Below, piece after piece: positions 18,849 through 62,978 of a stretch of 64,000 nt of DNA. The translations under genes and the position numbers were made by a program. The DNA lies in the NCBI GenBank assembly GCA_037042915.1, contig CM073197.1, positions 4,092,001-4,156,000 of the forward strand, given 5' to 3'. The notes beneath the pieces were generated by a model. The model was not told the origin of the DNA. It saw only the letters and a list, made by a program, of their open reading frames with translations, and did not search any database. This DNA is from Auricularia sp. M13 (taxonomy: Eukaryota; Basidiomycota; Agaricomycetes; Auriculariales; Auriculariaceae). Each line of letters begins with the position of its first letter. The stretch's first letter is position 1.

Positions 18849-20035
18849 ATGGTGATTACCATCCTCTCCCGCAGACCTCCAGACATTCTCGCCTCCGAAT
18901 GGTCGCCACCGTCATTAGTCGACTCAACAACACCATGCATCTCTGCGGGCGACTCCGAGAATCTTCAATATGTCACGACTCCCTTCAGGGGAAGCACAAC
19001 GCTCAGCTTCAAGGGTACGCGACATGACACAAACTTCCAATAGGAACTCGACTCGTTGCCGCAGGAAGCGGCGCCCTGTTGAATGGATTTACATGGACTA
19101 GCCATGGGGATGATCCCAACCTTGACGTCCGTGTCTCCCCTGACGATGCGGCTGTGTCCGTATCGCAGACCGGAGGAGGGGCAGGAACCTGCAATCCGTT
19201 TACCGCCTCAGTGTCGGGGCTGGATCCATCACAGCGGCATACGCTTACGATAGTTCTCACACCTGAAGGCTCTGCTGCGCAGACATTCTTTATTCTGAGC
19301 GGGAGTCTGCTCGGGGCTCCTGATTCGGTCGATGACTCCCCGCCGGCAGCTTCTTCCTCGATCGCTCAGACCCCAACTTCGACGCATCCACCCCCTGTGC
19401 TGTCGTCGGAGCAGCCAACTCTCTCGGCCACGTCCACACGTTCAAATTCTGAAACTTCGCCGGTTTCTTCAACGCTTGGAAGCTCCACGCATGCCGGTAC
19501 AGTTTGGTCCACACATGTTGCTGTGGCAATACGCTGATTCTGCCGCGCAGGAACACCCAATGTTCCCCATTCCGGCCCCGAGACGGGCTCGCCAACTAGA
19601 TCGGAGCCTTCAGCGATAGGGCCCAGTAGCACAGCACATAACTCTTCCACTAGCAAGCGCTCAAAAGTTGCTCTCGAAATAGGAGTTCCCATGGGAATCA
19701 TCGGGTTATTGCTCCTCATGGCGCTGGCATGGCTTATCCTCCGACGTCGGCAAGGGAAACCCAGTCTGGTGCCGTACTGGAGACGAGCCTCAGCGCCCGA
19801 CGCGGGGCCGCAATCAGAAAACGGGAAGCGCGACCCCGAGTCGCCACAGGTCCCGCAGAGTGTGGGGACAGAGGAGGGGGACCTCGTTGCGCTGAACGCC
19901 GTTCTCGATCAGGCTGGGCTCTCGGTGCACGAGCTTCTCGAGCTCTGCGCACGGAGACCAATAGCGGACGACCAAGGCAGCAGCTATGATGACTCGTCGC
20001 TCCCGCCAGGGTACGCGTCTGAAGCGTCGTGGTAG
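18849..20035 (+). CDS. Single-pass membrane protein with beta-sandwich-like ectodomain (family member 1)
   Basis: Three exons are inferred, with introns of about 50 bases at about 19015-19064 and 19498-19551. The ectodomain reads STTLSFKGSGALLNGFTW, then strands with DDPNLDVRVSPDDAAVSV and RHTLTIVLTPEG. This follows the pattern F-x-G-(T/S)-G-hydrophobic ... LDG ... HTL seen in many basidiomycete surface proteins. A Ser/Thr/Pro linker of about 90 residues leads to one helix (MGIIGLLLLMALAWLIL) and RRRQGK. The tail ends with LDQAGLSVHELLELC and PPGYASEASW, matching the tails of the proteins at 30.3 and 59.7 kb. No signal peptide is visible at this start, so a leader exon may be missing or the start may differ. 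Confidence 0.75.
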
Positions 20036-20441
20036 CAATCACCGCCCGTTGGTACACCCTCGGGAGCAAATTCCTATCTCGCCGGAAGCATGGCAGCAGT
20101 CATGACGGCGTCTCGCTCCCGTTTGAACCGTCGTAATAGCACACCGGGAGCGAGCATAGAAGCTGATCCTCAGGTCGCTGGAAACGTAGTGTTAACTCAC
20201 ACTGCAACTGAAATAGAGCGCGACACTTAGCAAGCAACCCTCCGTCACGCGTGCTGAGAATTGGGAGTCAAAGCCAAACCAAACGGGTGTGGATATGCAG
20301 GACAGAACAAAGTGCCCAGGTATAACAAAGCATCTACAAAAACCGTATCTAAGATAAGAGTGTCCGCCCCAAAAGGAAGCAACGAAAGAGAAAGAAAGAA
20401 AGATGAAGCGGACAAAGTGGTTCTGCCCATCACCGCAACGC
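20036..20441. other. Intergenic between convergent genes
   Basis: No gene seen; the end near 20385-20410 is rich in GAAAGAAAGAAAG. Confidence 0.5.
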
Positions 20442-22454
20442 TCACAGCGACAGAGCGTCGAGGAGGCGGCCGAGGCTGAGGTCGGGGCACACCAAGTCGC
20501 GCTTGCCCACGGGGAGCGCGCGCGCTGCGTGCGGGACGTCTCGCACCAGCATCCGGGACTTGGTCGACGCGCCGAAGCACTTGTCGAACACGTTGATGCC
20601 CGTCTTGAAAATGTCGAACTTGGCGTCCTTGTCGAAGATGCCCTTGATCGAGCCCTCCGCGCCGGCGGAGATGTCGATCGCGCCGTCGAGCTTTGCGCAC
20701 CCGTTCGCCTGCGCCTCCGCGCTGGTGTCGCGCTTCGTCGCGTCGTGCACGGGGATCGTGACGTGGATCATGCCGAGTGCGTCCTTGAGCGCCTCGAGCG
20801 CGTCCTCGATCTTCGTGTCCGACTCGTTGGGCGGAGGCGTGCTCGTGCTCACGTCGTCCGCGGGGACCTTGGTGTCCGACTCGCCGCCGGTGCCCACCTC
20901 GACGTTCGCGGACGCGTCGACGTGCATGTCGAGCGTGGCGGATGCATCCAGGTCGAGGTAGATAGAGGCCTTCGCGAGACCGGCGAGGAGCTTGATACCG
21001 ACCTCAACACGGGGGATGACGTGCGCCTCGACAACACCGTCAGCGGTAACGCTCGGGTCGAGCGACAGCTTGAAGGCTACACGGAGTCAGACAGCGCTGA
21101 CAGTCAGACACGTAACGCCAGCTTACGAGTGTCGATGTGCGAGGTCTGAGCCGACGAGCCGGATTCATCGTCAGGAGGGAATGCGAGCTGGACGTCAGGC
21201 CACGACCACGAAACACCGGTCTTGATCTATATCGCGCGGTCACTCAGAAAGCTGCTTCACACAAGCCCGAAGTCATACGCACGTTGGCCTCGACCTCAAG
21301 GTCGGCCTGCAGCTTGCCGTTGACCACGAACTGCGGACCAAGTTCAATGATGCTGCAACGTGGCGGATAATCAGCAACAGTTCGATGGAATGGGAAAGAC
21401 GGCGCGAATCTTGCTCTGATGGCATGATAGCACGCGCGACATACCCAGGCAGGTTCAGGCCGGGCAGGCCAGCGCTGTACAGCTTCTGCAGACCCGTGTC
21501 CAGCTTGCCAGTTGCATAGGCGTTGATATCGAAGAGCGCGGACGCAGAGCCGTTGAGCTCTGAAGAATGTGAAGAGCAATCCAGATCAGGGGCCTGGCCA
21601 ACGGCAAAGCAGAGATATCACGCACTTCCGATGAGCTGCATCTTGCTGATCTTGGGCGGGAAGATGTGGCCCTCGACCGCGAAGCCGAAGCCAACCTGCG
21701 CATCGAGGTCGACGTTCAGGTCGACGTCGAGGCCGGCGGTGAAGCCCGCGCCGCCCTCGGCGGCGACCGGGCAGTCGATGTCGGTCTTGAAGAGCTCGAA
21801 CTCCTTGTGCAGGTCGATGGGCGGCAGGTTGACCGTCTTGGTCTTCGAGAACTTCGAGACCGCCGCGAAGGACTTGAACGACTGCGAGTCACCATCCTCT
21901 TCGGGCACGACGCCCTTGACGTTGGACGTGGTGATGGAGAACTCGACCTCGTCGCCCTCCGCGCGCTGGATCTTGCTGAAGTCGTAGTCGAGCACGACCG
22001 CGTGCTCCTCGACGTCGCGCCGCCAGAGTGCCAACGCGCTGCTGCGCTTCGTGACGTCCTGCGTGCGCGCGACGCGCGCGAACGGGCCCGTGCCGCAGTC
22101 GTCCGGCAGGCGCACGATGGTGTCGACCGCGCTGTCGCCCTCGAACAGGCTCGCGCACGCCGCGTCGCCGTCAGGGCAGCGGATGGTCACGTGGGCCTCG
22201 CCGTCCGCCCACAGCGGGTCGCAGCCGAGGATCTCCCAGCCCGCGGCGGGCGTGAGGTCGGAGAGCGCGGCGGTCGAGCCGCGCAGGCGCACGGACGCGA
22301 ACGCCTTGTTGACGCCGTCGCCCGAGGTGAACGCGCAGCTGCCGCCGGTGCACGCCGCCGCGGACGGCGCGCCCCACTTGTCGCCGGGCTTGATGAACGC
22401 GCCGAGCGCGGACGCCGGGAGGAGGAGCGCGGAGGAGAGGGCGAGCGCGTGCAT
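20442..22454 (-). CDS. Large secreted protein, possibly DUF7029/DUF7223-like
   Basis: Exon 1 (21626-22454) starts with a signal peptide, MHALALSSALLLPASALG. Further exons are 21445-21559, one around 21290-21355 and later ones down to the stop. Exon 1 to exon 2 and exon 2 to exon 3 join in phase. The product is about 600 residues, low in Lys, rich in Asp, Val and Ala, with alternating strands such as GLDVDLNVDLDAQVGFGFAVEG and YLDLDASATLDMHVDASANVEV (split here by a few residues). The N-terminal third holds CTGGSCAFTSGDGVN and three Cys pairs. The pattern recalls fungal secreted proteins with DUF7029 then DUF7223 domains, whose function is unknown; this assignment is from memory. It is expected in the cell wall or medium. 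A GATAAAA element near 22541 may serve as TATA box. Confidence 0.7.
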
Positions 22455-23892
22455 GAAGGACGGGCGCGTAGGGGGAGAAAGGGGAACGAAAGGGAAGGGG
22501 AAAGAAGTTCCTTGCTGGACACGGCTGCGCGTGGGCTGCTTTTATCGGCCTCGCACACTTGGCCGCCACGCGATGCAAGATGAATCAGAGTTGATACATC
22601 GCAGATTGTCGGCCATTGAACACGAGGGCGGATGGCCGTTCATAGCTGCGACAGACAAAGACCCAGGGCACCAGGAGCAGCCACCGGCGTCGGCACGACC
22701 CAGAAGGGCTGCAGTGCACATTGGTGGAGCGGGGCGGGGTCGGCGCTGGTGGGGCAGAGACTAGCGCCGACGAGGGTTTGATGGCCGACGACGGCGTCGC
22801 CAAGATGATAGATATATCCTAGATCATGGACTTGCATAAGATGCTGTGAAGATGGCGGGAGATGATTAGGCATTCAATTTGGACCATACAGGGATAGTGC
22901 ATACCTGCAGCTCGACGCGCAGGACTTCGAGCATTAACGTCTACGACCAGAGTGCGCCAAAGCAGATGAAGCGGCCGGGATTCTTGTTATCGCGTCGAGC
23001 TGGCGTCAGCCGCGAAATCACAGACTCGAAGGAACGGCAGGTGGCGTCGTCCTTGGTGTGAAGGCAAGAGAAGCTTCGCGACGTCGAGGCCGGGTATGTT
23101 GAGCGCTCGACAGCAATGGTGCGCGCGCCACTCGTCCCGCCGGCCAGAGTTCATCGAGATATTCATCGAAAGCAGTCATATCCAAGCGTCCTGAGCATCC
23201 TTCCGACGTATTTTGCGTATTGTACCAGGAGATGCGGACGCGCGCGCATGGCCCAGTTCATCGAGGAATATTTCCTGGACGTACTGCTCTCGTGGGCGGA
23301 TAGGCAGAGTACAAGAGCGAGAATGGCTTGACGCAGCGTTGGCATGCTGTCGACCCGGAGGTGTAAGCGTCGAGCAAGCAGGGTTCGTATGGCTGTTGGC
23401 GATTGGTGGTACGTTCTACACGCCTTGCAAGCTGCGCCGTCTGCTTCATATTTATGCATGAGCCAGTAATTAAACAGATAGTATGCTGCGTACCGTTACT
23501 GACGCGCTCGAACCAAAAGGCCATGGCCAGCCAGCAGAGCCGGTTACATGGGTCCAGGTCAACCGGGAAAGCTCATAGTCCAGGAATTACTGGAAATTAT
23601 GGCGAGCATGGCGTAGATTCTGAGCGCTGATATAGAGTATAACGGCACATACGTGGCTCCAGCTTGAGTTCCCAAACTACAGAGCAGAGGTCAGAGGCCG
23701 AGCATGCACGGGTTGAAGAGGTGAACGCGTTTTCAAACCCAGCTGTTGTCTTTTTTCCCGAACCATCGTGCCATTCATGGACGCGCTCGCACACTTTATC
23801 TTTCGTGAACTGCGAAATGCTTGCCTTGAGTGAATTGCGCAATGCTTGCATACGCGCCAGGCCTCGAATAATCTATATGACCTGTCTCAGCT
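22455..23892. other. No supportable gene
   Basis: Contains the promoter side of the secreted-protein gene and then mixed sequence. Short frames on both strands have no domains. I see no repeat besides the element that starts at 23895. Confidence 0.4.
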
Positions 23893-23894
23893 TA

Positions 23895-24044
23895 CTGTAC
23901 CATTACGACCATTTGTTCATCTTATCGAAAAAATCTTATCTGATGGAGCTCTGATAAGTAATCGGAGGCGATTTATGGTATCTAACCTTTTTCTCAGCGG
24001 CCAGCGTTACATGTTACAATGAACATATGGTCGTAATGGTACAG
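23895..24044. mobile_element. 150-base MITE with 26-base inverted ends and TA flanks
   Basis: CTGTACCATTACGACCAT at the left end and its complement at the right end pair over about 26 bases with one mismatch, and both sides are flanked by TA. The centre holds a smaller palindrome around a GAGCTC. No coding capacity. Size, ends and TA target suggest a Tc1/mariner-derived MITE. Confidence 0.75.
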
Positions 24045-24385
24045 TATGTCTTGCGCTGTGCGGCTTGTGCACGCTTCAGGCTTTACGATGGATACCTCTA
24101 GCCGTCTGACGCATGACTCTCACGGCTCGAAATGACTGTAGCCATGATTGAAGGCTCCAGAGACTATTCTTGGCATAGTAATTTCGACTGGTCTGCGCAG
24201 CGCATTCTTCGCGATAAAGGAAACTCTTGCACTCACGACAATTCTACCATTCTCTACCAGAATCAGATTGGACGTTCTCTATGAAAAGCGCTTAACTCTA
24301 GTCTCGCCGCGATACAAGTGACACCGGTAGACGTCGACGAAATACCAGCATTCTTCCCGTCGTCTTTTGCACACGCTAAGTCGGT

Positions 24386-26033
24386 CTACACCTCCAGCGG
24401 CACGTATTCTGGCGCGCCCTCCACACCCAACTCCTGCACCACGCGCCCGAACTCCTGAAGAAACGGCGCCCGGAGATGGTGCTCGAGGTAGAACGTGACC
24501 TCTGCCGCCCCCTTGTGACTTGTCCAAGTCCCGTCTGGGCGGAGCGTTGGATTCGGCGTGAATATCTTGATGTAGCTTATGAAAAGGTCAGCATTTAACG
24601 CCCCAAATGATCAAACAGTCTACCGTGGTGCTCTCGTGCAAGTATGATAAAATCGCGCCCTCCCCTCGTACCCAAAATGCGCCAGGGTCCAATCGAAAGG
24701 CCGCGTACTATTGACGTTGACCGCGCCGGAGCTCGAGGAGAAGTCCAACGCGCGCGGCGGCGTGGCGTTGGCGGCTGCAGCGAACTTCTTGCCGCACACT
24801 GCGATGTTGGCGCGGACGTGGGCGGGGTCGCGAGAGAGCTGGAGCGACGCGCGGATGGAGCTTGCGAGGTCGTACGCGTAGGACGGCGAGGACGGTGAAG
24901 ATGTAGTGGGGAGGTCGGCTACGGCTTGGATGAGCGCGTTGCAGGCAGCTGTACGTGGAATTGGCGCGACGCCGCGATACTGCAGTGCCCCAGAAGTTGA
25001 GTTGCATTGCACAGATGAGGGGCCGTGAGAGACGTACGTTCACGATGTTGGTAACTCGAGTGATCTCGACCTCTCCGTGTTCGCGATGTACGCGGGTTAT
25101 GGCCACCGTCAGCGCGCTGACGAGACAGTCCTGTGTGGACAGACTCGGAGGAACAACATCTTCCTGACTGGAGATCAAAGCAAGGATACCTTTGCGAATC
25201 TGATTAATCTGCAGAGCGCTGAGGCGTATATCGATCCGCGTTGTCGCCGGAACCCGCACGCCATTGCTCGAAGGAAGTGAGACTTGTCTATCCAGCCAAG
25301 GCGTCTCGATCCTCGCTCCCTCCAAGTCTTGAACATTCTCCGGGTTCGGCGGGTAACTGTAAACGATGTCCTCTTCCGGTTCGAGATTCTGATAGAGCGA
25401 GGAGACGGCCCGCATGAACGTCGCCATGCCAAACCCGTCCCCGACGACATGTGACGCGCAGAAGCCGACGACGCTCCAGCTCGCAGCGGGCCCGAGGGTC
25501 AGCGTCATCCTGAGCAGCGGCTCGTCCGATCGTTCTGAGTCAGAGTACAGAGCCCACGGGTTGATTGGGCGCGTGAGGGGATGGAAGGGCGACTGCACGA
25601 TCGGCGCGTCTGCGCCTACGGGAGGCGTAGCTGCTTGGGAGGTGCGGGTGTGCAGGAGCGCGCCGGCGTTGGAGAGTCGAATCTGCAGCATGGCATGATG
25701 AGAATGGGCGGGCGAGAGTCGAGTCATCGAGACGTAACTCACCCGCCAATGGTCGGCAACCTTCTCGAGACGGCCCGCGTGCAGCGGATAGCGCGATAGC
25801 GCGCGTGAAAGCGCGTGCTTGAGGCGCTCGACGTCTATCGGACCTGGTACGACGATCGCCGTATCGACCTGAAAAGCTTTCAAGTGAACATCTGACGACC
25901 GAGAGGAGGCAGGCATCGTACGCACAGGAAACTGCATGTATAAATCCGTTTTCCTCAGCTCGTAAAACTCCTGGGAACCCAGTACTGTTGGCTCTTCAGC
26001 TCGCACAACGCAGGTGTCTTCATGCACGCCCAT
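24386..26033 (-). CDS. BAHD/trichothecene-type O-acyltransferase
   Basis: Exon 1 (25926-26033) encodes 36 residues and joins at 25868 in phase. Further introns lie near 25685-25743 and in the 3' half. The active-site motif HXXXD appears as ASHVVGDGFG, and the fold-typical AIVVPGPIDVERLKHALSRAL precedes it. The second family motif (DFGWG) is replaced by a divergent WTLAHFGYEG near residue 400, so catalysis or cofactor geometry may differ. The C terminus reads GAAEVTFYLEHHL and ends EYVPLEV. Such enzymes move acetyl or longer acyl groups from CoA to alcohols or amines of secondary metabolites. No other biosynthetic genes are adjacent. An upstream in-frame ATG near 26080 is an alternative start. 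Confidence 0.82.
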
Positions 26034-26500
26034 AATGGCAACCGCGGAGGAGGCAGAGAAGTCTCTATATGAGTGAGTCATCTTATCCAGGAACGTGAAC
26101 GGTGGATGTCGGCCGAGGAGAAGATTCTGTATTTGGTAGGGGTTATGTAAGATGGAGACCATTGGGAGGAGGTATCTTATCTGATCAGTTACCATAAGGG
26201 CGCAAGTATGTTGTGGACAATGCACCAGACATCTCGCTCACTGGAAAAATGCTACCTGAGCTAGATCGACATCTTCCGGGTAATAATGACGATGTATCGT
26301 CTGCTAAATCTGCGCGATGAGCATGCCAATATTCGACGGATAGCGCCTTGTGTGACGCCCGTACAGTCGTGGCTAGGGCTAGGCTATGCAAGGGGCTAGG
26401 CTATGCAAGTAGGCGAGTCAAGTTGCGCTGCAGGGCCGCCGGCTGTCTCCGCACGTTCGACTCTGAGCTGCATCTACCTACCTGCCTCTAGCCCGGTAAA

Positions 26501-30316: not shown

Positions 30317-31039
30317 CTAAGCTTCATAACCCGGCGGAGAGACCTCAATCGTACCCGCTCTCGGTGATCGCAGGGAGCGGAAGAGGTCGTGAACCGACAT
30401 TCCCGCGCGCTGCATCGCCGAGTGCAGTTCCTCCAGCTCTGGTGCCGTGTGTACCGACTCTCGAGGCTCGGTTGACGTACTGGGCGTCACTACACGCTTC
30501 GGCTCCTTTGGGGCCGCAGATGCGCCCGTGGTGCTGCTTCTGACGGAATATGGCACAGGCCCCTCCGTCAGGGCATGCTCTCGGAGCCGACGACGCCTTC
30601 TGCGCCAGAAGAGGGCAAGTAGAGCGCCCATCCCGAGAATTAGGCCAGCCACTGGCAGCACGACAGCGAGGACGACTTTTGGCTTAACACCGCCATGTTG
30701 TGTAGACAGAGCGACGGTGGTTGAGGATGACGGAGTCGTAGTCGGCAAAGCCGTTGTCGCCGAAGAAGAACCTGGCAATCTCGACGCTGGAACGCCTGCA
30801 GGATTGCTGGGCTGCGTCGCCAATGGAAAGGATACCGATGGAATGGTTATCGAAGGAAAGCTCACAGACGGAACGATTACCGATGGGAAGGGGAAGCTAG
30901 GAAACGGCCAACTCGATGCCCATGGAGGTGCACCTGGACGTATGGAAAACCCGCTCGCGCCGGGAGTTGGAAACCGTTGTGGCTGGCGCCGGTCGCGGGG
31001 AACCCGCGTCTCGAGCTGCGTGATCGTGGCTGCAGGCAT
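30317..31039 (-). CDS. Single-pass membrane protein with family tail, ectodomain reduced (family member 2)
   Basis: The last exon encodes a Pro/Ser/Thr-rich stretch with three to four VPSVSFPSITI-like repeats. One helix follows (VVLAVVLPVAGLILGMGALL), then FWRRRRRRLR, and a tail ending MQRAGMSVHDLFRSL and EVSPPGYEA. The tail matches members 1 and 6. No beta-sandwich ectodomain or signal peptide was found upstream, so either 5' exons are undetected or the ectodomain was lost. The ATG at 31039 is only the first in frame; the open frame extends to about 31060 without ATG. Confidence 0.65.
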   Translation of the reverse strand: MPAATITQLETRVPRDRRQPQRFPTPGASGFSIRPGAPPWASSWPFPSFPFPSVIVPSVSFPSITIPSVSFPLATQPSNPAGVPASRLPGSSSATTALPTTTPSSSTTVALSTQHGGVKPKVVLAVVLPVAGLILGMGALLALFWRRRRRRLREHALTEGPVPYSVRSSTTGASAAPKEPKRVVTPSTSTEPRESVHTAPELEELHSAMQRAGMSVHDLFRSLRSPRAGTIEVSPPGYEA

Positions 31040-31054
31040 GGGCACTGGGGCCAA

Positions 31055-31904: not shown

Positions 31905-33105
31905 TTATCTCTCGTATCGCGGCAAAGTCGGCTCTCCCTGCAGCAAGTCCGGCCGCGTTCTCTGCCGCTCCGCGTTTGCTGGTTGCGAATCGAGTATGGC
32001 GTGATGGTTACCATCTGCGGGATGCGAGATGTCCGACTCGATGGACTGTGCAGCGGGAGTCGACCATTGCTGGATGGTGGCGATGGCGCGCTGCTTCCCC
32101 GTCATCGCCGTGGCGTCCGGGTTTGACACCGCGAGATGTTCGCGATACGGCATCGTGCCGTTTGCGGAAGGCCCACTGCCACTTGCGGACCCGGACAGGT
32201 CAGACGTCGCCAGGCTCATAGCCTGAATTCGCCGCGCGGTCTCCCCCATCGGCTGCAATGCTACCGCGCGCGATTGGACAGGGTCCATGAATGGATTGAT
32301 GTTCTTTTCCTGGCCGATGGCGCGCGCGCGTTTGCACCAGAATAACGCGCCGACCAAGAGAATGAGGAGCACCAGTGCAGTAGGGACTACTATTGCAACA
32401 ATGAGCAGTGTGTGCAGTGGCTGAGGGGAGGCTGCGGCGATGACCCCAGGAGCCGTTGTTGACACCAATGCTGGGTCTGAAGGCACTGATACGCCGCCGG
32501 ATAAAGTCGAAGCGCTCGAGGCTGGCGAAGGGTCGATCTAGTGTCCTTGCAAACAGAGATATAGTACATACCCGCTTGTCCTGTGACCAACTCTGAAGCA
32601 TCTTCAGCAGCTAGAATCTGCGTCAGTATCGACTCCTGGATGACGCCGTCGTCAACTTTCTCCCACACCACAGACACGCGATGCTGCCCGGAGCTCAGTG
32701 CAGGTGCTGCAATGCTGAATGGCATGCATGTCGCGTTCTGAGGCTGGCTTGTAGACCATGAAATCGGCGCTGGGAGACCGTCGATCGAGAAGACCATTGC
32801 TGGAAACACAGGTGGCTGCTTTGCAGCGACCCAAGCAAATCCGAATATGAGCAGCCCGCTCCCTGGTTAATCGGTTGGCCGTGTGCTACGAGCTCGCGAT
32901 GCTGTATTGGTGCGTACCGGTGAAATTGAAGTGTAGAGTTGGTCCAGGAATCAGCGTGTATGTATGCGTACTATCTGGGTCATCGACGCCCGGGCACGCG
33001 GATGCGGCGGGATCGAGAGCAGCCCAGACCTTTGTGGGCGTATCCCATGCACTGTGTTCAACATCTGACCACGTTCCTCGGTGGGCAATTCTTTGAGATT
33101 GCATG
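31905..33105 (-). CDS. Single-pass membrane protein with beta-sandwich-like ectodomain (family member 3)
   Basis: At least three exons. The ectodomain begins with AHRGTWSDVEHSAWDT and LIPGPTLHFNFTG at about 32920-33080. After an intron (about 32874-32927) it continues with SGLLIFGFAWVAAKQPP, PAMVFSIDGLPAPISW and SSGQHRVSVVW. This is again the F-x-F-x-G / DG / H-hydrophobic pattern. The last exon starts near 32537, and its helix (LLIVAIVVPTALVLLILLVG) is followed by FWCKRAR. A 115-residue tail ends in TLPRYER. The tail differs from members 1, 2 and 6. The true N terminus and any signal peptide are not located. The intron between 32538 and about 32590 has no ideal GT site, so its donor is uncertain. 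Confidence 0.65.
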
Positions 33106-33586
33106 AGATGGGGGAAAACGATGATGTTGAAGCTTGACCCTCTTGATAACGAATGCCTCTGTTCATAAGGAGTTTAATGCGTCCGATCAGAATGTCCAAA
33201 ACGTTGAGGTCTCATCGGACTCCGGTGGCCGACTAAGTACTGGCAGTTTGGTGATGGCATCGAGACTTACCACTCCGACTTGCACACATTTCTGGCAGCT
33301 CGTAATAGATCGAACACCGAGCTAGCTGGTCCTTCGAATTTCTAGGTACATGGCACTCTGAAGCATACCATGGAGCTGGCAATTGGACGCTGGCATTCAT
33401 GTTTGTATTAACATGAGCAGTGCCCGCCAATCAGTAGCCACAGCTTTCACACCCTGAAGATGCAGATGCAGGGGGAAAAGGATAGCCGCTGATAACAATA
33501 GCCGCTCAAAAGATTATACTCAAATTCAACCTTATTCTATGTTTATAAAGTGCAGCAGAACACTTTTTACCTTACAGATAAGGAGC
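33106..33586. other. Intergenic or unrecognised leader exons
   Basis: A minus-strand frame at 33233-33430 has Cys residues and may belong to member 3, but I cannot prove a splice. Otherwise nothing is seen. Confidence 0.3.
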
Positions 33587-36536: not shown

Positions 36537-39500
36537 CTAACGCGTCGCCGTCCCCAGCAGATTGCTAGCAGAAGGGTGTCGTGAAACGGCCCGTGCCTCG
36601 TTCAGTGTCGTCGCGGCCGTCACATCAAACATCGCCCCGCTCTCTAGCTCAACGGCATTGGTATTCGTGACAGCGGTTATTCGGCTTCGGCGGAACGCGA
36701 TCCTCGTCCCTGTCGTGCGGCCCAACGTCGCGTTGTGCGTTGAAAGATGCAGAGTCGTGTCCGCGTTCCGGAGGAGGGAGAGGACAATGCGCGTGCCCCC
36801 GATCGCGCCTGCAGCGTGAACGATGCTATGGCAGATAATAAGGGTGGTAAGTGCATGTTTCAAATGGGCGAATATAAGAAGGACGGAAATGTCTTGGACG
36901 TACGTGATCACGGAGACGCCTGGGTTGAGCCCAGTTTTGAACGCGAATAGGAAAAGGTTGACTATCATAGCTAGTACAATCCTATAAATCACCAGGCCGG
37001 GTCATGAGAGGTTTGTAATGAAAAAAAATGAAGCAAGAGACGTACATGAGAAAGTACATGATGTTGTCGCGGACCATGAGCGACATGAGTGATGAGCTGT
37101 TCAGCACAAGAGCATGCTCTTGGACGATCTTCCGAACGGCGAGCACGGCGAGGTATGACTCGAATGCCAATGCTGTGGCTCCTGCGTCAGTCCCGGAAGG
37201 GGTACTGAGGAGTATTGTACGTACGCGCTCCCCAGACTGCAGCGAACTCTTTGGGCCGCTCATTGAAGCATGATCCGAGAGTCCACGGCGGCACGATGAC
37301 GGCTGTAATTTATTAAGATGAGATCTTTGTCTCGTCGCGTATGGAGATAACTGACGAATGGCGATCCCGTAGTAAAGCGCTGTGATGATCCCGGCGACAA
37401 TCGCTTCGAGAACCATGAGGCAGGCGTTGGAGATTAGGATCTTACGCGAGCGGTTGTACATAATATATAGACTTGGGGTTGGAGGTCAGATCGCGAGGCC
37501 GTGACGCGCGAATACTGACCGTGATTGCAAAATAACTGCGATTATTCCCACATGAGAACTCGGCAGAGAGAGACTGAGAGGCTCGCAGAGAGAGACTGAA
37601 AGGCTCACCCTGGACGAAGAAGAACAGGACAAACGTCCCGATGCCTTCAAACCAATCGAACATGCTGCATCTGAGCGCGATAAGAATTCTCGACCTAGAA
37701 ACCAGGAAGCGAACTGACTCCTAGAGACAGATTAGCATGGTGATCATGAGAGTCTCAGACACATGACGTACAATGGTCGTAAACCCGCGCAATGTGCAGG
37801 AAAGGGCACTCAGGACAAGCATTAAGCCCGCGAAGTACCGTGTCTGCGGCCCGACCGTGAGACGAAAGCGGGTGCAAATGGCGCATTGGACGAACCGAAA
37901 GGAAGAGTACGGCGCTCCACCGGACCCTGCGGCACTGCATCGAGGAACTGTGAGCAATCTTTCGAGGTCATGCCAGTGCACCAACTCACCCAGATATACC
38001 GAACCTGCAGAGCAGGTGAGCCGCAGTTGCAGAGCAGGCTACCGCGCGCTCACCTCGTCGTCAAACGTGAGTACTGGAGTGCATATGAACACTAGTTTGC
38101 AACGTTGGCCACAGAGCACAGACCATAATCGTAAAGAAACCACGCCAGCGCAATCACTACATACGCATGACGCGATGTCATCATCATGAAAACCGCCGAT
38201 AGATTGTAGCATAATACATCGCAATGTACTGAGTTATAATCCGTCGTATTGCATGTCAACTCTCACTTCGTGTGTAAGCGTGGTGAAGCGTGACAAGCCA
38301 GTGTAACGAACTCAGCCGGCGATACACTTGCCGGCAGGATAACAGTCCGTTCGTAATCTGTCGTAATCTTGTGACCAGGTTGGCCAGACTTGGCCGCTCG
38401 TTGGTCAGTGCTATTCAAGTCGGCCATTGTCATTACGGAACATTGCCCAGGAGGCAGGCATTGTGGTAGCTTGCTGCTCAGTTTCTGGCTGTTTGAACGG
38501 CAGGACCGCTGGGTAATCTTTTGCTTAGGATTCTCGTATTCACGGCACAGGTAAGATAGGGCAAAGCAAGTGCATATTCTTGGAAACGTGTGTACAGCAC
38601 GGACATAAGGGGATGTAAATCTAATATACCGGAAACGAGGGTGGAAGACGCGACGGCTGGTTGCAGGCGGATGAGAGTACTGTATGGGAGACGGGGGATG
38701 TGCGAGAGGGCGTGTAAGGCGAGGGAGTGAGGGAAACGCGGCGCTGCGTGCGTTGAATGTCATGAATCTGAAAAAGATTAGTTAGTCCGCAATATGGAGG
38801 ACAGGCAGCGGAGCAGGCACGAGCACGAGCAGAGCCAGCCATCCCAGAGGTGCAAAGCATAGCCCAAGATCAGATTAAGCCCCAGGATTGAATTCCCGAC
38901 TGAGTCAGGCGGACACGAAGCGCGAGCAACATTGGAGTAACTCAGGGCAAGCTCCAGAGCTAGCGGTCGAAGGCCAGGCGGGCTTGACGAACGGAGCGGC
39001 CCGCTAAAGTGCTTGAAGCTGGGGACAGGGCGTGCGGATGTGCTTGAGGCTGGCGAAAGCGCGATGAGCGGAAGGGGGAGAGCAAAGAGTGCCAAGTCTT
39101 TTCGAACACCGCGCTGTTTGTTGACACGGCCCGAACAAGGTTCCGCAGTCCATGACGCTCATGATGACGTCGGCCCTCAACACGTCATCGAAGTACAGTA
39201 ACTTCGGTCCTTGGGAGCCAGCTGCCTTGGTCGGCGTCGTCTGTTCGACAAAACTGTCTGCTGTATTAGGATATCGAAATGGTATGAGATAAATACAGTA
39301 ATGGAAATGCACAAACAGCTCCGGGTGGATGCAACCTCGTTGAGCTACCCTGCATATACCCAGGAAGACCCAGGATATTTATCAGGCTTGCCGCAGAATC
39401 ACAGCTACATGGAGGCAGCCAGTAAGCCGTCGGTAATCGATGGTAATCTACTGCCATGTTTGACTCGGATTTCGATCCGTTACCAGGTTCCGTACGGAGG

Positions 39501-39733
39501 GTAATCCGAGTGTAATTATCGGACGTCATGACGAGTTCTGCCCTCGTCATGTAGAAACTTATAAATACTTTCAAGTTGCCACTTCCAGTACAACCTACTG
39601 TCACACGAAGGAAGTTCCTACGCCTTTTCATGATGATATGAGCTGAAGCATGAACTGCAGTCGGATACGCACTTTGGCAATATCCATTGGGAATCTCGTT
39701 CGGATCGGTGAGGACAATGATCTTTGAGCCCAT
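36537..39733 (-). CDS. DUF6533-type seven-helix membrane protein (paralog B), first exon displaced
   Basis: Exon 2 onward (36537-38156) follows paralog A step by step: IALAWFLYDY, LTFDDE, TRYFAGLMLVLSALSCTLRG, FDWFEGIGTFVLFFFVQ, NRSRKILISNACLMVLEAI, ESYLAVLAVRKIVQEH, TGLNPGVSVIT and SIVHAAGAIGGTRIVLSLL. The tail is shorter and Thr/Ala-rich. A first exon of exactly the expected length and phase lies at 39673-39733, with the pattern M-G-x6-T-x-P-x-E-x-P-x-G-Y-C-Q of paralog A and the same GTGCGT donor. It is 1.5 kb away instead of 59 bases. The space is filled by the block at 38180-39634. Either intron 1 is now very long and still spliced, or the gene is broken. Confidence 0.7.
38180..39634. 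mobile_element. Putative 1.45 kb insertion in intron 1 of paralog B
   Basis: The block begins TCATCATGAAAA and ends TTTTCATGATGA, a 12-base inverted repeat that extends imperfectly into a GC-rich CCGCC/GGCG. It separates two parts of what should be one short intron. The minus strand within it holds open frames at 38263-38763 and 38778-39095, the second with hydrophobic ends, but I recognise no transposase. It could be a non-autonomous DNA element or a captured gene fragment. The short inverted repeat could also be chance. Confidence 0.45.
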
Positions 39734-43383: not shown

Positions 43384-43402
43384 CCCTGTGTACACGGGGT
43401 GA

Positions 43403-44408: not shown

Positions 44409-44455
44409 GCCTGAGCGGCGTACGAGCTTGGCAGCTCGCGCTCATTGCCCACACG

Positions 44456-55042: not shown

Positions 55043-55645
55043 TAAGATAGGCCCGGCCGAAAACCCGCCTCATCACGTGATCTGTTACATATCTATTATC
55101 CGTGACCGATCCGGTTCCGGCCGTGGATTCCCATGTGTATATTCAACCGTCCAGGAAGGTGAATAGGAGCTCCCTTGAAAAGAGTGTATTTAGTCTATCT
55201 ATCAACGGCAAAGCACAGGAAAATAGAATTTGAGGACCGCACAGTCTCAGGCGGAACAGATGCTGCTGCACCACTGCCGCCGAGGGCCGATTCTGCTGAG
55301 CTCATTCTCACACGGTTCTGCAAAAACTGGCCGCACCAAGTTGTTCAAAATGAGCTTAATGGTGATCCTGGGACTTAATTTGAAGAGAACATGCCCTCCT
55401 GCAAGTGCTGGACACCGGGGAGTCTACGCGGCACCGCCAGCTGATTTGCATGCAGGCCGACAGCCTTCAAGATGCGGAATTCTGGCCGCAACAAGTTGTT
55501 AAAATTTGAAAGACTTAGCATTGTGCATAACAGGTTCAACGGTATGGCTAGAGTACCGACCGCTGGGAGACTTGTCGTGCAGCCGTCACGCTGGAGGGCG
55601 CTTAAGATCACGTGATGAGGCGGGTTTTCGGCCGGGCCTATCTTA
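55043..55645. mobile_element. 603-base inverted-repeat element with 40-base ends
   Basis: The ends pair over about 40 bases (TAAGATAGGCCCGGCCGAAA and onward to CACGTGATC) with no mismatch that I can see. The outermost TA on each side fits a TA target duplication. The interior has two similar GGCCGCAxCAAGTTGTT boxes and no coding capacity. It looks like a young non-autonomous DNA element, probably of the Tc1/mariner type, but the internal sequence is not familiar. Confidence 0.7.
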
Positions 55646-56237
55646 GTATCGCGCCGCTCTGACGGGGACATGGGCTGTCAGGCCGGCTGCGAGGTCCGAT
55701 GTCATCTGTCCGGAGGGGATCTGACTCGTTTGGCGGTGTACCTGCTGTGCTTGTTTGCATACGACGATTCTTCCGCCAATCTGATACCGACGATGCCTTG
55801 GCGGTAACTTGACTGGTTTGACGTCCGCTATCGACTCACGATCATCTTGTTCCAAGCCGACCAGCGTTTTACTGATTCTGCGCACGCCGCAACGAGAGCA
55901 CCAGCTTGTTGAATTCCCTGCATCCTTCGTCGTAGCACAACAGCACAGCTTTCTCAGACCGTCTTCTAGTGTGTCCTGACCAGTGATTAGCAGCTCCCCT
56001 TGCTCACCGAATTTCCAACCTCAGTTACTGGTGCACCGCACTCCAGGGAAGCGCTACGGATGCTTAAAACACACGCTACAAACTAATGCCACCCAGCGGT
56101 GCCGGTATTACATGGCGGTGCGATCCATCGCGGGAGTGGCAACCTCCGGCATTAAAAGGCAAGTCGTGCCTCTGGTTCCCCAGTTTGTGCGGTTAACATT
56201 CCTGCGATCTTGCTTTCCTTTTGTATGTCTAACACAG
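55646..56237. other. Unresolved, may hold 5' exons of family member 4
   Basis: No signal peptide exon could be fixed. The acceptor just before 56238 shows that an upstream exon must exist. Confidence 0.3.
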
Positions 56238-56751
56238 GCGACTTCAACTTGACATGGCCATCCGGCCACCAATGCAAGAATGGCGCCTTGCCTAAGTCGC
56301 CGTGCCTGTTCGACGAGGATGTCCATCATCACATTCAAGTCTTTGCGAATTTCACCGTAGTTAATCCTGGTAAGTATATTCTACTTACAGTCAGTTACTT
56401 ACTGATAGTCTACTGGAGCTACAACGCTTAATCTGCAGGCCTGGCTTGTCGGGAGCAATGCACCCCTTCTCCCCCCGACGTTGAAATTAGATGGCATTCA
56501 ACAACGGCTGGACCTGAACTTCAGCAAGGCTGCCCAGCGTAATGGGCCAGACTCTATATGCGCACACCATGATTTTCAAATGACCACGAAACTTTGCAAG
56601 GACAAGAACTGGTACTTTCTCGGCGCTACGCTCGCCCTCGATTCTGGAAGCCAACATAATATAACTATCGATTTCAGCGGGGATGGCGATGCGTCTATCG
56701 TGGTTGAAACCATCGCGAACATTTCAGATTTACCGCAGACTACTACGGCTC

Positions 56752-56800
<49 letters not shown>
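56752..56800 (+). repeat. (CTA/ACT)n microsatellite coding for poly-Thr
   Basis: About 16 trinucleotide units in frame, giving a Thr run in the linker of family member 4. Length is likely polymorphic. Confidence 0.9.
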
Positions 56801-56951
56801 ATCATCCAGCACCCAGAGTAGTAAGCAGGGTCCTTCGCTTCTCCTAAGCAAAGAAAAGGATATTGATCGTGTTCGCAGCCAGAGCGCCTGCTTTGCTCTC
56901 TTCGTCAGACTCGCAGCAGAGCTTCACGTCGGCCTCACCTCTACCCACTTC

Positions 56952-57629
56952 TATGCTTCTTAAAGTGTACATTTATTATTGCCCACTAAAATAGGGGTGG
57001 CACACCATTTTGAGTGTCTCTCACCTGTACAAAGTGTGGGCACATCACTTTTGAAGAGTGGACACACTCAGTCAGTGTGTGGACACACTTAGTCAGTGGT
57101 GCCGACACTCCCATCAGAGTGCCGACACTCCATCAAGGTGCCGACACTCCAATCAAAGTGCCGACACTCTTGCAGGTGGATGGAACACCAAGTTCCCTCA
57201 CCTCCCAGAACTGCTCCAATCACTGAGATATGGCTGAGGAACATGCACAGAGTGCATTTAAACCTATATTTTGAGTTTATTCAAATATTTATTTTTCCAA
57301 AAAAGGCAATTTAGACCCTGAGAAGGCATTCAGAGCATACTCCTCAAACATATCTCAGTGTTTGGAGCAGTTCTGGGAGGTGAGGGAACTTGGTGTTCCA
57401 CCCACCTGCAAGAGTGTCGGCACTTTGATTGGAGTGTCGGCACCTTGATGGAGTGTCGGCACTCTGATGGGAGTGTCGGCACCACTGACTAAGTGTGTCC
57501 ACACACTGACTGAGTGTGTCCACTCTTCAAAAGTGATGTGCCCACACTTTGTACAGGTGAGAGACACTCAAAATGGTGTGCCACCCCTATTTTAGTGGGC
57601 AATAATAAATGTACACTTTAAGAAGCATA
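56952..57629. mobile_element. 678-base fold-back element with about 290-base arms
   Basis: TATGCTTCTTAAAGTGTACA at the left is matched by its complement at the right, and the pairing continues inward for about 290 bases with few mismatches around a spacer of roughly 100 bases. TA lies at both outer ends. Each arm contains four to five tandem GTGCCGACACTCC units. A matching 70-codon frame appears on both strands only because the arms are complementary. It is non-coding, most likely a fold-back MITE, and it lies at the 3' border of the ectodomain exon of member 4. Confidence 0.85.
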
Positions 57630-57659
57630 CACTTCAGTTCAAGGGGCAGGCAAGGGAAA

Positions 57660-58090
57660 AATAGTGGACATGCACCCAAAAAAAAGTTACAAGCGGTTTG
57701 CCGAACCCCCCCTCCCCCCCTCGGAAGCAAATTTGAGCCCGCGGATGCCGTATTTGGAACTGAAACTTGGTCAACTCTCTTTAAATGCTCAAATGCCGAC
57801 TTTCAAAGTGTCCAGCAGCTCAATAGACGCAGCACAAGTGTAGCTGCGCTCTTGGTGGAGGTAAATTCTGGAAAAGGAAACTGCTGACGTAAGCCTTCGG
57901 ACATCGCCGCTCTCGGCGTGCTCCTCCTCCTCAGCTGGCCAAATTGCTGCATAGAGCCTTGCTAAAACTCTTGGAGCAAGTAAAGAAAGAAATATGCTGT
58001 GGGAGACACAGACAATGCTCAAATGGGCCTCCCGGACCCCCCTCGGAAGCAAATAAAAAAAAAGTTATAAGCGTTTGCCAGGACCCACCC
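57660..58090 (+). repeat. Repeat remnant with an internal direct duplication
   Basis: AAAAAAAAGTTACAAGCGGTT near 57677 and AAAAAAAAAGTTATAAGCG near 58056 are copies of one unit, as are two CCCCCTCGGAAGCAAAT blocks near 57716 and 58037. The order of the two blocks is reversed between the copies. It looks like debris of another non-autonomous element next to the fold-back. Confidence 0.55.
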
Positions 58091-58589
58091 CCCACCTGGT
58101 CCGTGTACCGGAGTTTGCCGATGCCTGCCCCTTGCTTCAGTTGCCAACTCCACACCGCAGACAACGTCACAGGAATCAAGCTCCTCGTCACGAATCTCAC
58201 AGTCTGCTCCGACGGCGGCGGTTCATGGCGGGCATTCCGGCACCAGTGTCAAGGAGATTGTACCAGCAGTCATCGTCTCAGTCGCCCTTCTACTCGGTTC
58301 CATCGCTGCATACTTCATCTGGCGCCGGCGCGCCTCCTCGCGCTCTGCGCCCAGTGCAATCTTCAAGGGCGAGAGCCCCGACATGAAGCCATGGATGCCG
58401 CTCAGCGCCCAGCGCTCCGCAAGCCGGCTGGCGTGACCGCGACGCAGGACGTCTACTGTAGGTCGCATTGCCCATTTTCCCGGTGCTCGAATGCTCAAAT
58501 ATTATCTCGTGCTCCCGTGTATATTGTATCACTGTGTCATATCTCACCACGAGTCCCATCGTCGTGTAGGCCTATGTAATATGTACGAT

Positions 58590-59293
58590 TTAGTTATGCC
58601 CTGTAGCTGGGCGGATGCTCGTTCTCGGAGTCCTGCACGCCGAACATTCCAGTGTGTGCTGAATCTCAGGAGCTCCAGATCGCTCGCGTTTCTGAGCCCT
58701 GCGCCCGGCGTTGAGTCGTTGACAACGACATTCCCCATGCAGTGTGTATGTCTTGGTGTATGGCGCGATTATAGGAATCGACGATGCCGACGCGCGCAAT
58801 ACAGAATCCGAATGAGGCTTCGTCTCACGGAGTACTCCCTGATTTAAGTCTCCATTCCGGTTGTAAGGTGATATACTCGCATCATGACCGCCGATGGGCA
58901 CATCTGCGCGAGCTCGCACTTCATTTCCAGCTTCCAAGCTTGCGTGGTCTGGCATAGACAGGCCACAAGCCACCAGTAGAAGTGCAGTGAGAGTTGGAAC
59001 GAGGACTGCGACGAGGAGTGTCTAGTTTCCTGCCGAAGTGAGCACATTCCGTGGCGTATACATGGATAGAACATACTCTACGCAGGCCCGTTGGTTATTT
59101 CCGTAGGTAAGGCGGGAAATGCGGTAGGAAGCTGGTGGAAAGAAAGCCCGTCTGGATCCGCAGTACTCCAGTCTGTCACGCAACTGCCATCCGGGTCAAA
59201 TATGCATAGTATGCAGGTCAATCCCCCAGGCAGCAACGACGTTAATGGCATATGCGCAGCCAGCGGGGTGTTATGAGCGAGCTTGATGACCAC
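58590..59293 (-). CDS. Single-pass membrane protein, partial (family member 5)
   Basis: Two exons are visible on the minus strand. The first ends with LTCILCIFDPDGSCVTDWS and FPALPTEITNGP, like the last strands of an ectodomain. After an intron (about 59032-59090) the second gives one helix, TLLVAVLVPTLTALLLVACG, and a tail of about 120 residues rich in Arg, Ser and Thr. No RRR cluster follows the helix, unlike the other members. The 5' exons are not found. It lies in divergent or convergent pairs with members 4, 6 and 7. Confidence 0.45.
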
Positions 59294-59698
59294 GTAGCTA
59301 CATATAGTCTATGGACTCGGAGTGCAACTGGAACAGCGCCCAAGCCGGGGGTGATGGCCGTTCCACCTTTCCTGAGAAGTCGTTTCCTGCTCACAGCAAT
59401 GGGACGTACTAAGCCTCACCGACTGACGCCTGTCCTGCCAGTGCCATCTCTTCTACCGATGACTTTCTTCCACAAATAACGGTAGGTAGCTCCAGAATGG
59501 GGTCTGGGGATGCTGTCATTCGGGAATTATGAATTGTAGTAGGTGAGAAACGTATATATTCCTTATATGTGTCGGATCTCAAACCACGAGTCGGGAAATA
59601 CACAACTTTTCAGCAACCGCGGGATAGTAAGCGGTATAATCACGTGACTATGATATCGGAGTGACAAACCGCGGCACCGCATGATATGACGGACAATG

Positions 59699-61015
59699 TC
59701 AAGGCTCATACTGGGGAGGCATGACCTCTCCATATGTAGGAGTAGGAAGACGGTCATATTCCGCCGCGCGGTTGAGTGAGCGCATAAGGTCATTGGCTGA
59801 ACGACCGGTACGTTGCATCGCTGTCATGGGCTCGACCACCGTGACAGGCAACGCCACACCGAGGACCGGCAGAGGAGCCGGAGCTATGGGTAAGACAGGA
59901 GAGATGTCGTATGCACGCTTGTACTTGAGGAAAGAGCTTGCGGTACTGCGCAAAGTGGTTGTCCGCTCGCTGTAACTGTCGGACAGTCGTTCCGCTGAGA
60001 ACGGATTCGACGTGGCAGAAGGGACGGGAAACGGCGTCACGGCGTCCTCGGTTTTATGAATGGCAGTAGCCGGCGTGGGCTCCATCGCGCGACGGCGCCT
60101 GCGGAGGACGAGCAGACTGAACAGGACGATCGAAAGGATGATGACGGGCACAATTACGGCGGGTAATAGGACGCCGATGAGAATGCCATGTGAGGATTGA
60201 GTTGTGTGCCCACTATGACCCTGTGCACCGGTAAATGCTGACGTTGACGCGGGAGAGGGAGGAATCAATTTGCTCGAGACGCCACTGGTAGTGTCTCCCG
60301 TTGTACTGGTGGCGACAGGTACTCGTGAAGACGGCGTAGAAGAGTGTAATATCGTTGTTGATGAAATCGACGCGGTCGAAATGGCCAGCGTCAAAGTTTT
60401 CGACGGTTCTGCCGTATGCAAGGCGTCTCCGGCAGTCTGCGACACGTTTGGAGGCTTTGACGCGTCTGTCGTTGGTGGCGCGTCTGCCGTCTGTGGCGTG
60501 CGCGATGTCTGTGACGCGGCCGACGCCTGAGACGCGTCTGCTGTGGGTGATACCACCGGAGGCCCTTGTGACTTCTGCGACGCGAACGACTTCTGGGATA
60601 CTTCGGATTTCTGAGAAGCGAAAGACCGTCTTGACGCCGATTGGGTTGAAGCTGACATTCCAATAAACCCATCTAAGACGACTGACTCTGCGTGATGAAA
60701 AATGTGGACGTACTGATAGCTGGATGAGAGTCATCTGTCCCCTCGTGTCTGGCCGCGATGTACTCGACGACGAAAGACGACTCGTTGGATTCACGATGAC
60801 CGCTGGTATGTGTCTTCCAAGATGCTACCACCTGGGGTAGGGTCGCCTCCGTCATACATGCGCAAGGAGAGGCACAGAATGCGGGAAGTAGACCGCAGAA
60901 CAGGGGGATTCGACATCGGTCTACCAACGTCGACGGTTTTGACTTCCACGAACGATCTGCGCGTCGATTCCCGTTTCCTCCGATGAATAGCAGTAGCAGC
61001 GTTATTCCTGCGCAA
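59699..61015 (-). CDS. Single-pass membrane protein with family tail (family member 6)
   Basis: The large last exon (59699 to about 60655) encodes Ser/Gln repeats (SFASQKS, three times) and a long Thr/Ser/Pro linker. One helix follows (GVLLPAVIVPVIILSIVLFS), then VLRRRRRAMEP, and a tail of 130 residues ending AMQRTGRSANDLMRSL and MPPQYEP. This end matches members 1 and 2. Upstream on the same strand, 60673-60900 reads ASWKTHTSGHRESNESSFVV then EYIAARHEG, like the final strands of the ectodomain, but the splice to the last exon and the N terminus are unresolved. Confidence 0.65.
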
Positions 61016-62176
61016 ACATTACGTACCGGCGACCCCCCGCATTACTTCGAGACTTTTCCGGAGGCGCAGGGCTGAGCGTCGCCGAGAAAGCGATGACCAG
61101 GGATTGTCGCAGGTAGCAGACTGGCAGATGCATCGCCATACGCACAGAAAAGACATTAGTTAATCAGGGTAGGCGCCAGTCTCGTGTGGCCGACAGCGCC
61201 TGGATTGCGTCAAACCAAAGTTGCATATGATGTCTCCGGGAGATTCCATTCGCTGTAATTGCATTCGTAGGCAGCACAATAGGCGACCAGCACGGCATCA
61301 CGCGCGTGCTACGAGTTGGCGTGCCGACGAAAGTGGCGCACAGCACTAATCAAGAAAAGAATATGATAGACATCCAGCACAAGCGCAGAAAATTCCAAGT
61401 GTGGCCACGTTTAGATGCACGAGAATGGTTGTTCATGTGAAGCCGGTCGAGACAGAAAGAACCTGGAGACGGAAGAAAATAGAAAACAGTTTTTGCTAGC
61501 ACCGCCTTATCGTATAGACCAGCAGAGGAAGTCGTCGCAGGAATTCCCTTCTATCAAGAATTCTGGCCAGTACAGGAGGCAGGGCAATGGGCAAAGGAGC
61601 GGATGCACGACGCGCGCTGACTCGCGACCAGATCCGTGCGAGGCACGGCGGGGGCTGCGACAGCGGGCTTACAGTTGTGAGCCATGGTCACGGTGGGAGG
61701 AAAAGAGCGCAAGGCTCGACCGGGCCGATCTGGCCGAGCATCACCCGCGGGACCATTTATATTTATGTCTCTGCCGCCAGGTACAGTATACCTCCATGCT
61801 CACTTGCTGTGTATCTGCTACGTGCGTACTAGATGCTGATCTTGTAAACATTCTCATAAGATGTTTCCTCAAACTAATCTCCGAGAAGGGAGGATTTACT
61901 GTCTAGCCTGAATTCCAAGTTCAGCTGGGCGGCCAATGGCCATGTCACAAAGCTGTTTTCTTCACGCTCCTGCGATGCTCGACATTACCTCGGAATTTTT
62001 TTCTATCTGTACTGTGTCTCAAGCGTCTCCGAACGAGGCAGTCTATACTTGGGCGCTTCTGCGCGCAGCATGCCGGTGGATCGACACGGCTGTGCACTGC
62101 ACTGGCCAACTCGCCGGGTGTCGACAAATGCTGTTTGCCTTTCTCCACACTCCTTTGCGGCCACCGTTGCACGCCC
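61016..62176. other. No supportable gene, possible leader exons of flanking genes
   Basis: No domain-bearing frame. A signal peptide for member 7 was searched for just upstream of 62177 and not found. Confidence 0.35.
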
Positions 62177-62978
62177 ATGGCCACGCCCATTGATCACTCG
62201 CCACTGCCAACGAAAGTGACAACGTTGGACGTTACGGCCAGCTTTGCGCAGACCGACGGCGCCTCGGCGACGCCAGGCTGCGCGTTTGGGCACAGATTAG
62301 AAGGAACTTATGTTTGCCCCGGGACAACGGCTAGTTTGGCTTTCTATGGTATGCAAGCGGGTGCTGTAGAACGCGCAGCGACATAATACTGATTCCGTTG
62401 TCTTCACCTTAGGATCGTCGGTGGAAATCTTCCTGAACGGTACAACACGGTGTCAGGACGGCGTGTTCGACGTCCTCCTCGACGGCGTCGACGTCTTAGC
62501 GCCGCAATACGCGGGCGCGTCACTATGTCCCAACGCCACGCGTGTCCAGCAGACACTGTCCGCGTCGGCGTCACACTTCCTCGCGATCGTCAATGACGCC
62601 CGCAACACTGCGCCAGTGCTCATCACACGCGCGTTCGTCGAGAACTACTCCGCGGTAGCCGTCAGTACACCGATCATTGTGACTGCGACACCGACGCCGT
62701 CTACAAACTCAAGGCCGGTCGAAAGCGCCAGCGCGACGAGCAGAAGGAATCTCGTCGCGGTGCTCGTACCGTCGATCCTCATTCCCGTCTTGATCATCGT
62801 CCTCGCAATTGGCAGTATCGCTCCGTGGTGGAGAAGGCGGATGCGCAAGCAACGCGCGCTCATGGCGCCCAGCGCGGCGTTCAGGGCTGAGAATCCTGGA
62901 CTCGTGTCAGCGCCGCCTGTTCCGTGGACTCCTATTGACGTAAAGAGAGGGCCTGGGGAGAGGGCGGATGTGGTCTGA
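62177..62978 (+). CDS. Single-pass membrane protein with beta-sandwich-like ectodomain (family member 7)
   Basis: Two exons, 62177-62348 and 62413-62978, join in phase to give 245 residues. The ectodomain reads TTLDVTASFAQTDGASATPG, then CPGTTASLAFYGSSVEIFLN, DGVFDVLLDGVDVLAPQ and FLAIVNDARNTAPVLITRAF, the F-x-G-hydrophobic / LDG pattern of the family. After a short Thr/Pro linker comes one helix, LVPSILIPVLIIVLAIGSIA, then WWRRRMRKQRA. The 45-residue tail, PSAAFRAENPGLVSAPPVPW, resembles the tail of member 4 (PSAIFKGESPDMKPWMP). No signal peptide is visible at this ATG, so an upstream exon is likely. Confidence 0.72.

Follow-up and report, generated by a model that had tools for sequence, protein, structure and literature searches.

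In a 64,000-nucleotide stretch of the genome of the basidiomycete Auricularia sp. M13 (the window; C5:4092001-4156000, contig CM073197.1 of assembly GCA_037042915.1, in a genome of 52 Mb on 14 contigs), seven loci, M1 to M7, belong to one expanded family of predicted single-pass membrane proteins. Their apparent plan is a beta-rich, CE2_N-like ectodomain (seemingly absent in some members), a Ser/Thr/Pro stalk, one helix and a presumed cytoplasmic tail. The favoured explanation, to which a probability of about one half is given, is that these proteins are surface receptors or adaptors whose tails recruit a ubiquitin ligase and which have been diversified by exchange at the linker. Homology among the members, their gene structure, the enrichment of a C-terminal PY motif (PPxY/LPxY) and an exchange of tails are directly supported by the data. 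The initial annotation of this DNA had placed the seven loci correctly and had proposed a single, locally clustered and partly decaying family in which shared tails carry differing ectodomains; profile scores, the repeats within M4 and the broken frame of M5 bear this out. New here are the continuation of the cluster past the window, the PY enrichment and the tail exchange between two genes, L023- and L024a (L numbers denote loci elsewhere in the same genome).

Gene structure and ectodomains

Gene models were built by hand with GT-AG introns. The features of the window are as follows, with tail classes A and B described further below.

18849..20034, plus strand: M1, with ectodomain, linker, helix and tail A ending PPGY (exons 18849-19014, 19065-19496, 19551-20034; ectodomain score reached by 0/1000 shuffles)
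30317..31054, minus strand: M2, with stalk, helix and tail A ending PPGY; ectodomain not found, start codon uncertain
31905..33400, minus strand: M3, with ectodomain, linker, helix and its own tail ending LPRY (exons 33400-33271, 33064-32918, 32862-32572, 32521-31905; 0/1000 shuffles)
56225..56738, plus strand: probable M4 ectodomain in two exons (56225-56356, 56439 onward), weak donor only; 21/1000 shuffles reach its score
56952..57629, no strand: foldback repeat inside M4, arms of 307 nt, 97% complementary
57640..58134, no strand: second repeat element inside M4, with matches elsewhere in the genome
58140..58436, plus strand: end of the M4 linker, helix and tail B
58464..59183, minus strand: M5, related to a C3 locus but with a broken frame (77% DNA identity, 769 columns); the open frame of the C3 locus ends HPPSYRA
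59699..60658, minus strand: M6, with stalk, helix and tail A ending PPQY; ectodomain not found
62177..62979, plus strand: M7, with ectodomain, linker, helix and tail B without a PY motif (exons 62177-62348, 62413-62979; 0/1000 shuffles)

M1, M3 and M7 are complete single-pass proteins in which an ectodomain is followed by a Ser/Thr/Pro linker, one hydrophobic helix, a basic stretch and a tail, with the parts joined by GT-AG introns of 50-206 nt. In each of the three, the F-x-G strand motif has its Gly codon split by a phase-1 intron. All four dispersed genes checked (L041, L045, L047 and L048) agree in position and phase, whereas the M4 intron is of phase 0. A single plan had been claimed for all seven loci. 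It was found in full at M1, M3 and M7 only; M4 is a probable member split by repeats, no ectodomain was found at M2 or M6, and M5 is frame-broken. The statement that four loci fall within 7 kb is correct, but M7 is the only complete and unbroken ectodomain gene among them.

The homology of the ectodomains was assessed with a profile (profile 1) of 11 domains from a dispersed family (L017, L019, L041, L045, L047 and L048) that contains no window member; its positions are F-x-G, DG, L and H, and each sequence was scored against 1000 of its shuffles. M7 (21.5 bits), M1 (15.9 bits) and M3 (11.2 bits) reached scores attained by 0/1000 shuffles of each, and by this comparison their homology is secure. 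M4 reached 2.5 bits, matched by 21/1000 shuffles, and is a probable member of the family. A candidate ectodomain upstream of M6 was rejected (a fragment at -1.3 bits, reached by 223/1000 shuffles). A second profile (profile 2, alignment A5) contains M1, M3 and M7 and finds those by construction. Among 6475 frames of at least 25 residues from the window and 20 loci, it detected none for an ectodomain exon around M2, M5 and M6; the profile likewise misses the ectodomains of L023 and L024 and scores M4 only at E 8.5, and a diverged ectodomain at these three loci could escape it. M2 and M6 seem to be stalk-helix-tail proteins, as do L022 and L023+. Apart from M3, a genome search with M3 as query returned a single marginal hit (E 0.077), later read as L013.

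The commonest Pfam match of the ectodomains is CE2_N (PF17996), a carbohydrate-esterase jelly roll. The match covers the F-x-G and DG strands and was obtained, below the curated cut-off, at E 0.0036 for M7; four of 12 domains matched at E <=1, with a best value of 0.00012. AlphaFold2 was given single unspliced exons only, and the resulting models are mainly beta at low confidence. M3 exon 2 was modelled as six strands and one short helix (mean predicted local distance difference test score, pLDDT, 65.7; predicted template-modelling score, pTM, 0.55), while M7 exon 2 reached a pLDDT of 50.6. These models make a beta-sandwich ectodomain likely; the jelly roll that had been proposed initially is weakly supported by them and by the sub-threshold CE2_N matches.

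Esterase domains were not reported in the seven window proteins scanned with Pfam, and none of the seven (7/7) matched a WSC domain. The latter result bears on an alternative in which the family would consist of Wsc/Mid2-like wall-stress sensors: the stalk would sense the wall, the tail would signal to the wall-integrity pathway and the PY end would only set turnover. A Ser/Thr-rich stalk, one helix and a basic tail are the plan of such sensors. The missing WSC domain speaks against this alternative, as do expansion, clustering and tail exchange, for none of which that small family is known, and it is considered quite improbable.

Tail classes, cluster extent and tail exchange

Two shared tails were distinguished. 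Tail A (AMxRAGLSVNELMSSLxRV ... PPxYE) is present in M1, M2, M6, L022, L023+, L024a and L024b, and tail B (APSAAFRA ... PWxPIDxKR) in M4, M7 and L023-. The block with PPxY common to M1, M2 and M6 had been recognized in the initial annotation, as had the different tail of M4 and M7 (z 9.7, 40% identity), and both were recovered here. Comparisons of helix plus tail gave z scores of 9.7, 6.3 and 12.5 inside tail B and of 2.7 to 24.3 inside tail A. The lowest of the latter (2.7, 3.2 and 4.2) are those of M1 against L024a, M6 and L023+; M1 is linked to tail A through M2 (z 11.2), L022 (7.5) and L024b (7.0). Tail A against tail B gave z -0.3 to 5.8, the inclusion of the helix raising scores such that unrelated classes reach 5.8. 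Judged by these scores, both shared tails are real. A genome search with a tail-A pattern returned 26 matches, compared with 9 in the control. Six of the 26 fall within C5:4111913-4178451, a clustering that is not a blind test because the pattern was composed after those six cluster loci were known; L024a was missed. The canonical-tail pattern as a whole was not enriched in the genome (11 matches, compared with 15 in the reversed control), and a candidate canonical tail at window position 37326 was dismissed, on inspection, as a chance frame.

The cluster continues past the window, where L022 (minus strand), L023+, L023-, L024a and L024b were added from neighbouring DNA. Together with the seven window loci, these five bring the cluster to 12 loci over ~71 kb, from M1 to L024a. 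A protein query with the L022 member gave matches of E <1e-4 confined to this cluster. A scan for helices found nothing in the 40 kb upstream (L026-L029) and one unrelated stalk protein (L033) in seven 10-kb control stretches. These negatives carry little weight, since the scan missed known genes in L019, L020 and L021 and both genes of L024.

The mixing of ectodomains and tails, first proposed from different ectodomains on shared tails, is strengthened by the reverse arrangement outside the window, where one ectodomain occurs on two tails. L023- (249 codons) and L024a (438 codons) lie 10 kb apart, and each is one open frame from the ectodomain to the stop. Their DNA is 86% identical over an alignment of 804 bp that begins upstream of the ectodomain and breaks off abruptly within the Ser/Thr/Pro linker. 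Their ectodomains are 69% identical in protein (z 34.6), whereas helix plus tail gives z 2.4. The tail of L023- is tail B, similar to that of M7 (z 12.5), and the tail of L024a is tail A, similar to that of L024b (z 24.3). Splicing does not explain this difference because both are unbroken frames. This is the one pair found in which neighbouring genes combine similar ectodomains with different tails. The ectodomain of L024b is only modestly like those of L024a (z 6.9) and L023- (z 3.5).

Substitution rates were estimated for this pair, the only close pair of ectodomains. Nonsynonymous (dN) and synonymous (dS) distances are 0.170 and 0.174 in the ectodomain, a ratio of 0.97 with a bootstrap range of 0.57-2.01, and 0.065 and 0.154 in the shared linker, a ratio of 0.42. 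The ectodomain thus appears to change fast for its synonymous distance, which fits either diversification or relaxed constraint. Positive selection was rejected as a demonstrated property.

The same ratio, with the broken state of M4 and M5, would also suit a decaying tandem array in which unequal recombination has exchanged tails incidentally while turning many copies towards pseudogenes. Between the ectodomain exons of M4 (56225-56738) and its helix exon (58.14-58.44 kb) lie a 678-bp foldback repeat and a second repeat of ~495 bp, and exon 2 is in frame only via a GTAGTT donor. M4 is probably a member split by two repeats. In the C3 relative of M5, helix and tail lie in one open frame, and the equivalent frame is broken in the window. 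Several observations speak against this reading. The frames of L023-, L024a, M1, M3 and M7 are open through ectodomain, helix and tail, the block and PY end of tail A are kept in seven loci, and the shared linker of the exchanged pair shows the lower ratio given above. Decay as the general explanation is judged improbable.

Several further observations concern repeats and copies. The two elements inside M4 (56952-57629 and 57640-58134) adjoin, and relatives of both occur at many places in the genome; the repeat stretch has at least 57 genome matches, the palindrome being counted on both strands. A tandem repeat of ~4 units of ~187 bp lies between cluster genes (L022 4038-4748), and 1472 aligned bp of window 38182-39635 recur inverted ~36 kb downstream, beyond the window, at 87% identity. 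Six loci with the double-domain arrangement of the dispersed genes make up a second cluster of ~96 kb (C2:4504360-4600243), with internal stops in one of them. Near-identical pairs lie far apart on one contig, namely L017/L018 on C2 (98% over 128 residues) and L041/L046 on C1, and represent either recent duplications or unresolved haplotypes. On contig C11, five pairs of like matches occupy mirrored positions on opposite strands (e.g., 115769/2339469 and 318187/2135964), which would fit either a large inverted duplication covering most of the contig or the head-to-head joining of two haplotypes.

The PY motif and its predicted role

The motif [PL]PxY occurs within the last twelve residues of 17/21 family C-termini with a confirmed stop (15 PPxY, 2 LPxY), compared with 4/1049 ends of other frames of 100 codons or more, the control ends being stop-to-stop frames that are mostly not genes. 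The motif is present in M1, M2, M3, M6 and 13 members beyond the window. The four C-termini that lack it are those of L040 and of the three tail-B members M4, M7 and L023-. Removing L044, which has no stop in frame, changed the count from 17/22 to 17/21, and adding L045 would make it 17/22. Both members of the two near-identical pairs are counted, and collapsing these pairs with L044 kept gives 15/20. Among genes found via the ectodomain (L017, L018 and L019), PPxY is present in 3/3.

The PPxY-like end had been seen initially without a function, and a docking role is proposed here. Excerpts of a study in yeast describe PPxY as a ligand of WW domains in Nedd4-family ligases, Rsp5 among them, and the C-terminal PPAY of Sna3 as required for its correct endosomal sorting (PMC2171029). 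The PY motif of most tails in the family would most likely dock WW domains of a Nedd4/Rsp5-type ubiquitin ligase, as suggested by the motif, its enrichment and the yeast precedent. Two frames of the Auricularia genome contain three WW domains each (C4:1531170-1531730 and C1:8077092-8077610); known from these domains, they are as expected of Rsp5-type ligases. In the favoured explanation, the beta-rich domain, assumed to face outward on its stalk, would meet a glycan of the wall or of a foreign source. Upon this contact, the receptor or a bound partner would be ubiquitinated and taken in. Recombination in the stalk would join ectodomain cassettes to tail A, with PY, or tail B, without it. The recognition role of the family, advanced in the initial annotation, is likewise putative.

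Several observations weigh against this explanation. The CE2_N match is under the curated cut-off wherever a score was printed (M7, 17.8 vs 27.9 bits; best genome places, 23.7 bits), and a profile search of the PDB was insignificant (pectin lyase, E 0.45; CE2, E 3.4). Profile 1 did not recover the ectodomains of L023 and L024 (shuffles reaching the score: L024a 41/1000, L023- 77/1000, L024b 110/1000), and these could be either a divergent branch or a different kind of domain. A signal peptide was not evident in the models of M1, M3, M4 and M7: either a 5' exon is absent from the models or the helix orients the protein. L013 does start with a signal peptide, as judged by eye. L040, and L045 outside the count, have no PY motif despite typical-looking ectodomains. 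Finally, the tail-A genes and L046-L048 were found partly via their tails, and the PY count is affected by this selection.

If the tail is the working end, a different role is possible. Members would then be adaptors like Rcr1 or Sna3, delivering a Nedd4-type ligase to membrane proteins other than themselves, and the ectodomain would be dispensable or serve only to position the protein. The tail A of M2, M6, L022 and L023+, at which no ectodomain was found, would be accounted for, and yeast offers a precedent in the PY-motif transmembrane adaptors of Rsp5, including Rcr1, which acts on the chitin synthase Chs3 (in the text excerpted from PMC9105457). Against this role stand the ectodomains kept in frame with helix and tail in M1, M3, M7, L023-, L024a and L024b, and tail B, which has no PY motif. 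It is regarded as an unlikely but serious alternative to surface receptors with a ligase-recruiting tail.

Since tail B lacks the PY handle, a copy that joins it to the same ectodomain would be expected to act as a decoy or not to internalise. By analogy, L023- and L024a could form a fungal paired-receptor locus, in which one ligand-binding ectodomain would be displayed in two versions, with a recruiting tail A and a non-recruiting tail B. This proposal is doubtful. Were it true, the balance of the two versions would set the response to, or uptake of, a wall or non-self signal, and stalk recombination would keep producing new ectodomain-tail pairs.

Relation to known systems

The receptors of fungi provide the wider context. 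In excerpts of a survey of 101 species, no leucine-rich-repeat pattern-recognition receptors are reported in fungi, and novel receptor classes are suggested to be possible (PMC2939053). Where transmembrane proteins are mentioned in the excerpted text of PMC10197012, the subject is cell-death proteins and NLRs rather than surface receptors. No description of this family, or of PY-tailed basidiomycete membrane proteins, was found in the open-licence PMC literature among the matches listed. A clustered surface family with exchangeable ectodomains and a candidate output, from the PY motif to a ubiquitin ligase, would supply concrete, testable genes for the fungal receptor question. Even if the receptor idea fails, the exchange of tails at the stalk clearly illustrates how fungal membrane proteins evolve by modules.

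Four known systems resemble the family in part. With the CE2_N jelly-roll domain, it shares its commonest Pfam match; it differs in that the match is below the cut-off wherever a score was printed and concerns the N-terminal module only. The Wsc/Mid2 sensors have a similar Ser/Thr-rich stalk, single helix and basic tail, whereas the Auricularia family shows no WSC domain in the seven window proteins scanned, has tails that end in PY motifs, and is clustered and exchanged. The PY adaptors and cargoes of Rsp5 (Rcr1/Rcr2, Sna3, Bsd2, Ear1/Ssh4) are likewise membrane proteins with a PPxY-type tail motif and expected binding to Nedd4-type WW domains, as described in excerpts of two reports (PMC2171029; PMC9105457). 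In contrast to these, many members of the Auricularia family have a long Ser/Thr/Pro stalk that bears an ectodomain, their genes are clustered, their tails have been exchanged, and their binding is predicted.

The closest analogy for the exchanged pair comes from paired receptors, which are described in excerpts of one report as genes with similar ectodomains and opposite roles (PMC5701461). There, Siglec-11 and Siglec-16 lie ~9 kb apart, and gene conversion has maintained their similarity under relaxed constraint. As with L023- and L024a, these are neighbouring genes with close ectodomains and different tails, in which recombination has acted on the ectodomain part. The two systems differ in that the folds and organisms are unrelated, and the fungal case is a single pair known from its sequence.

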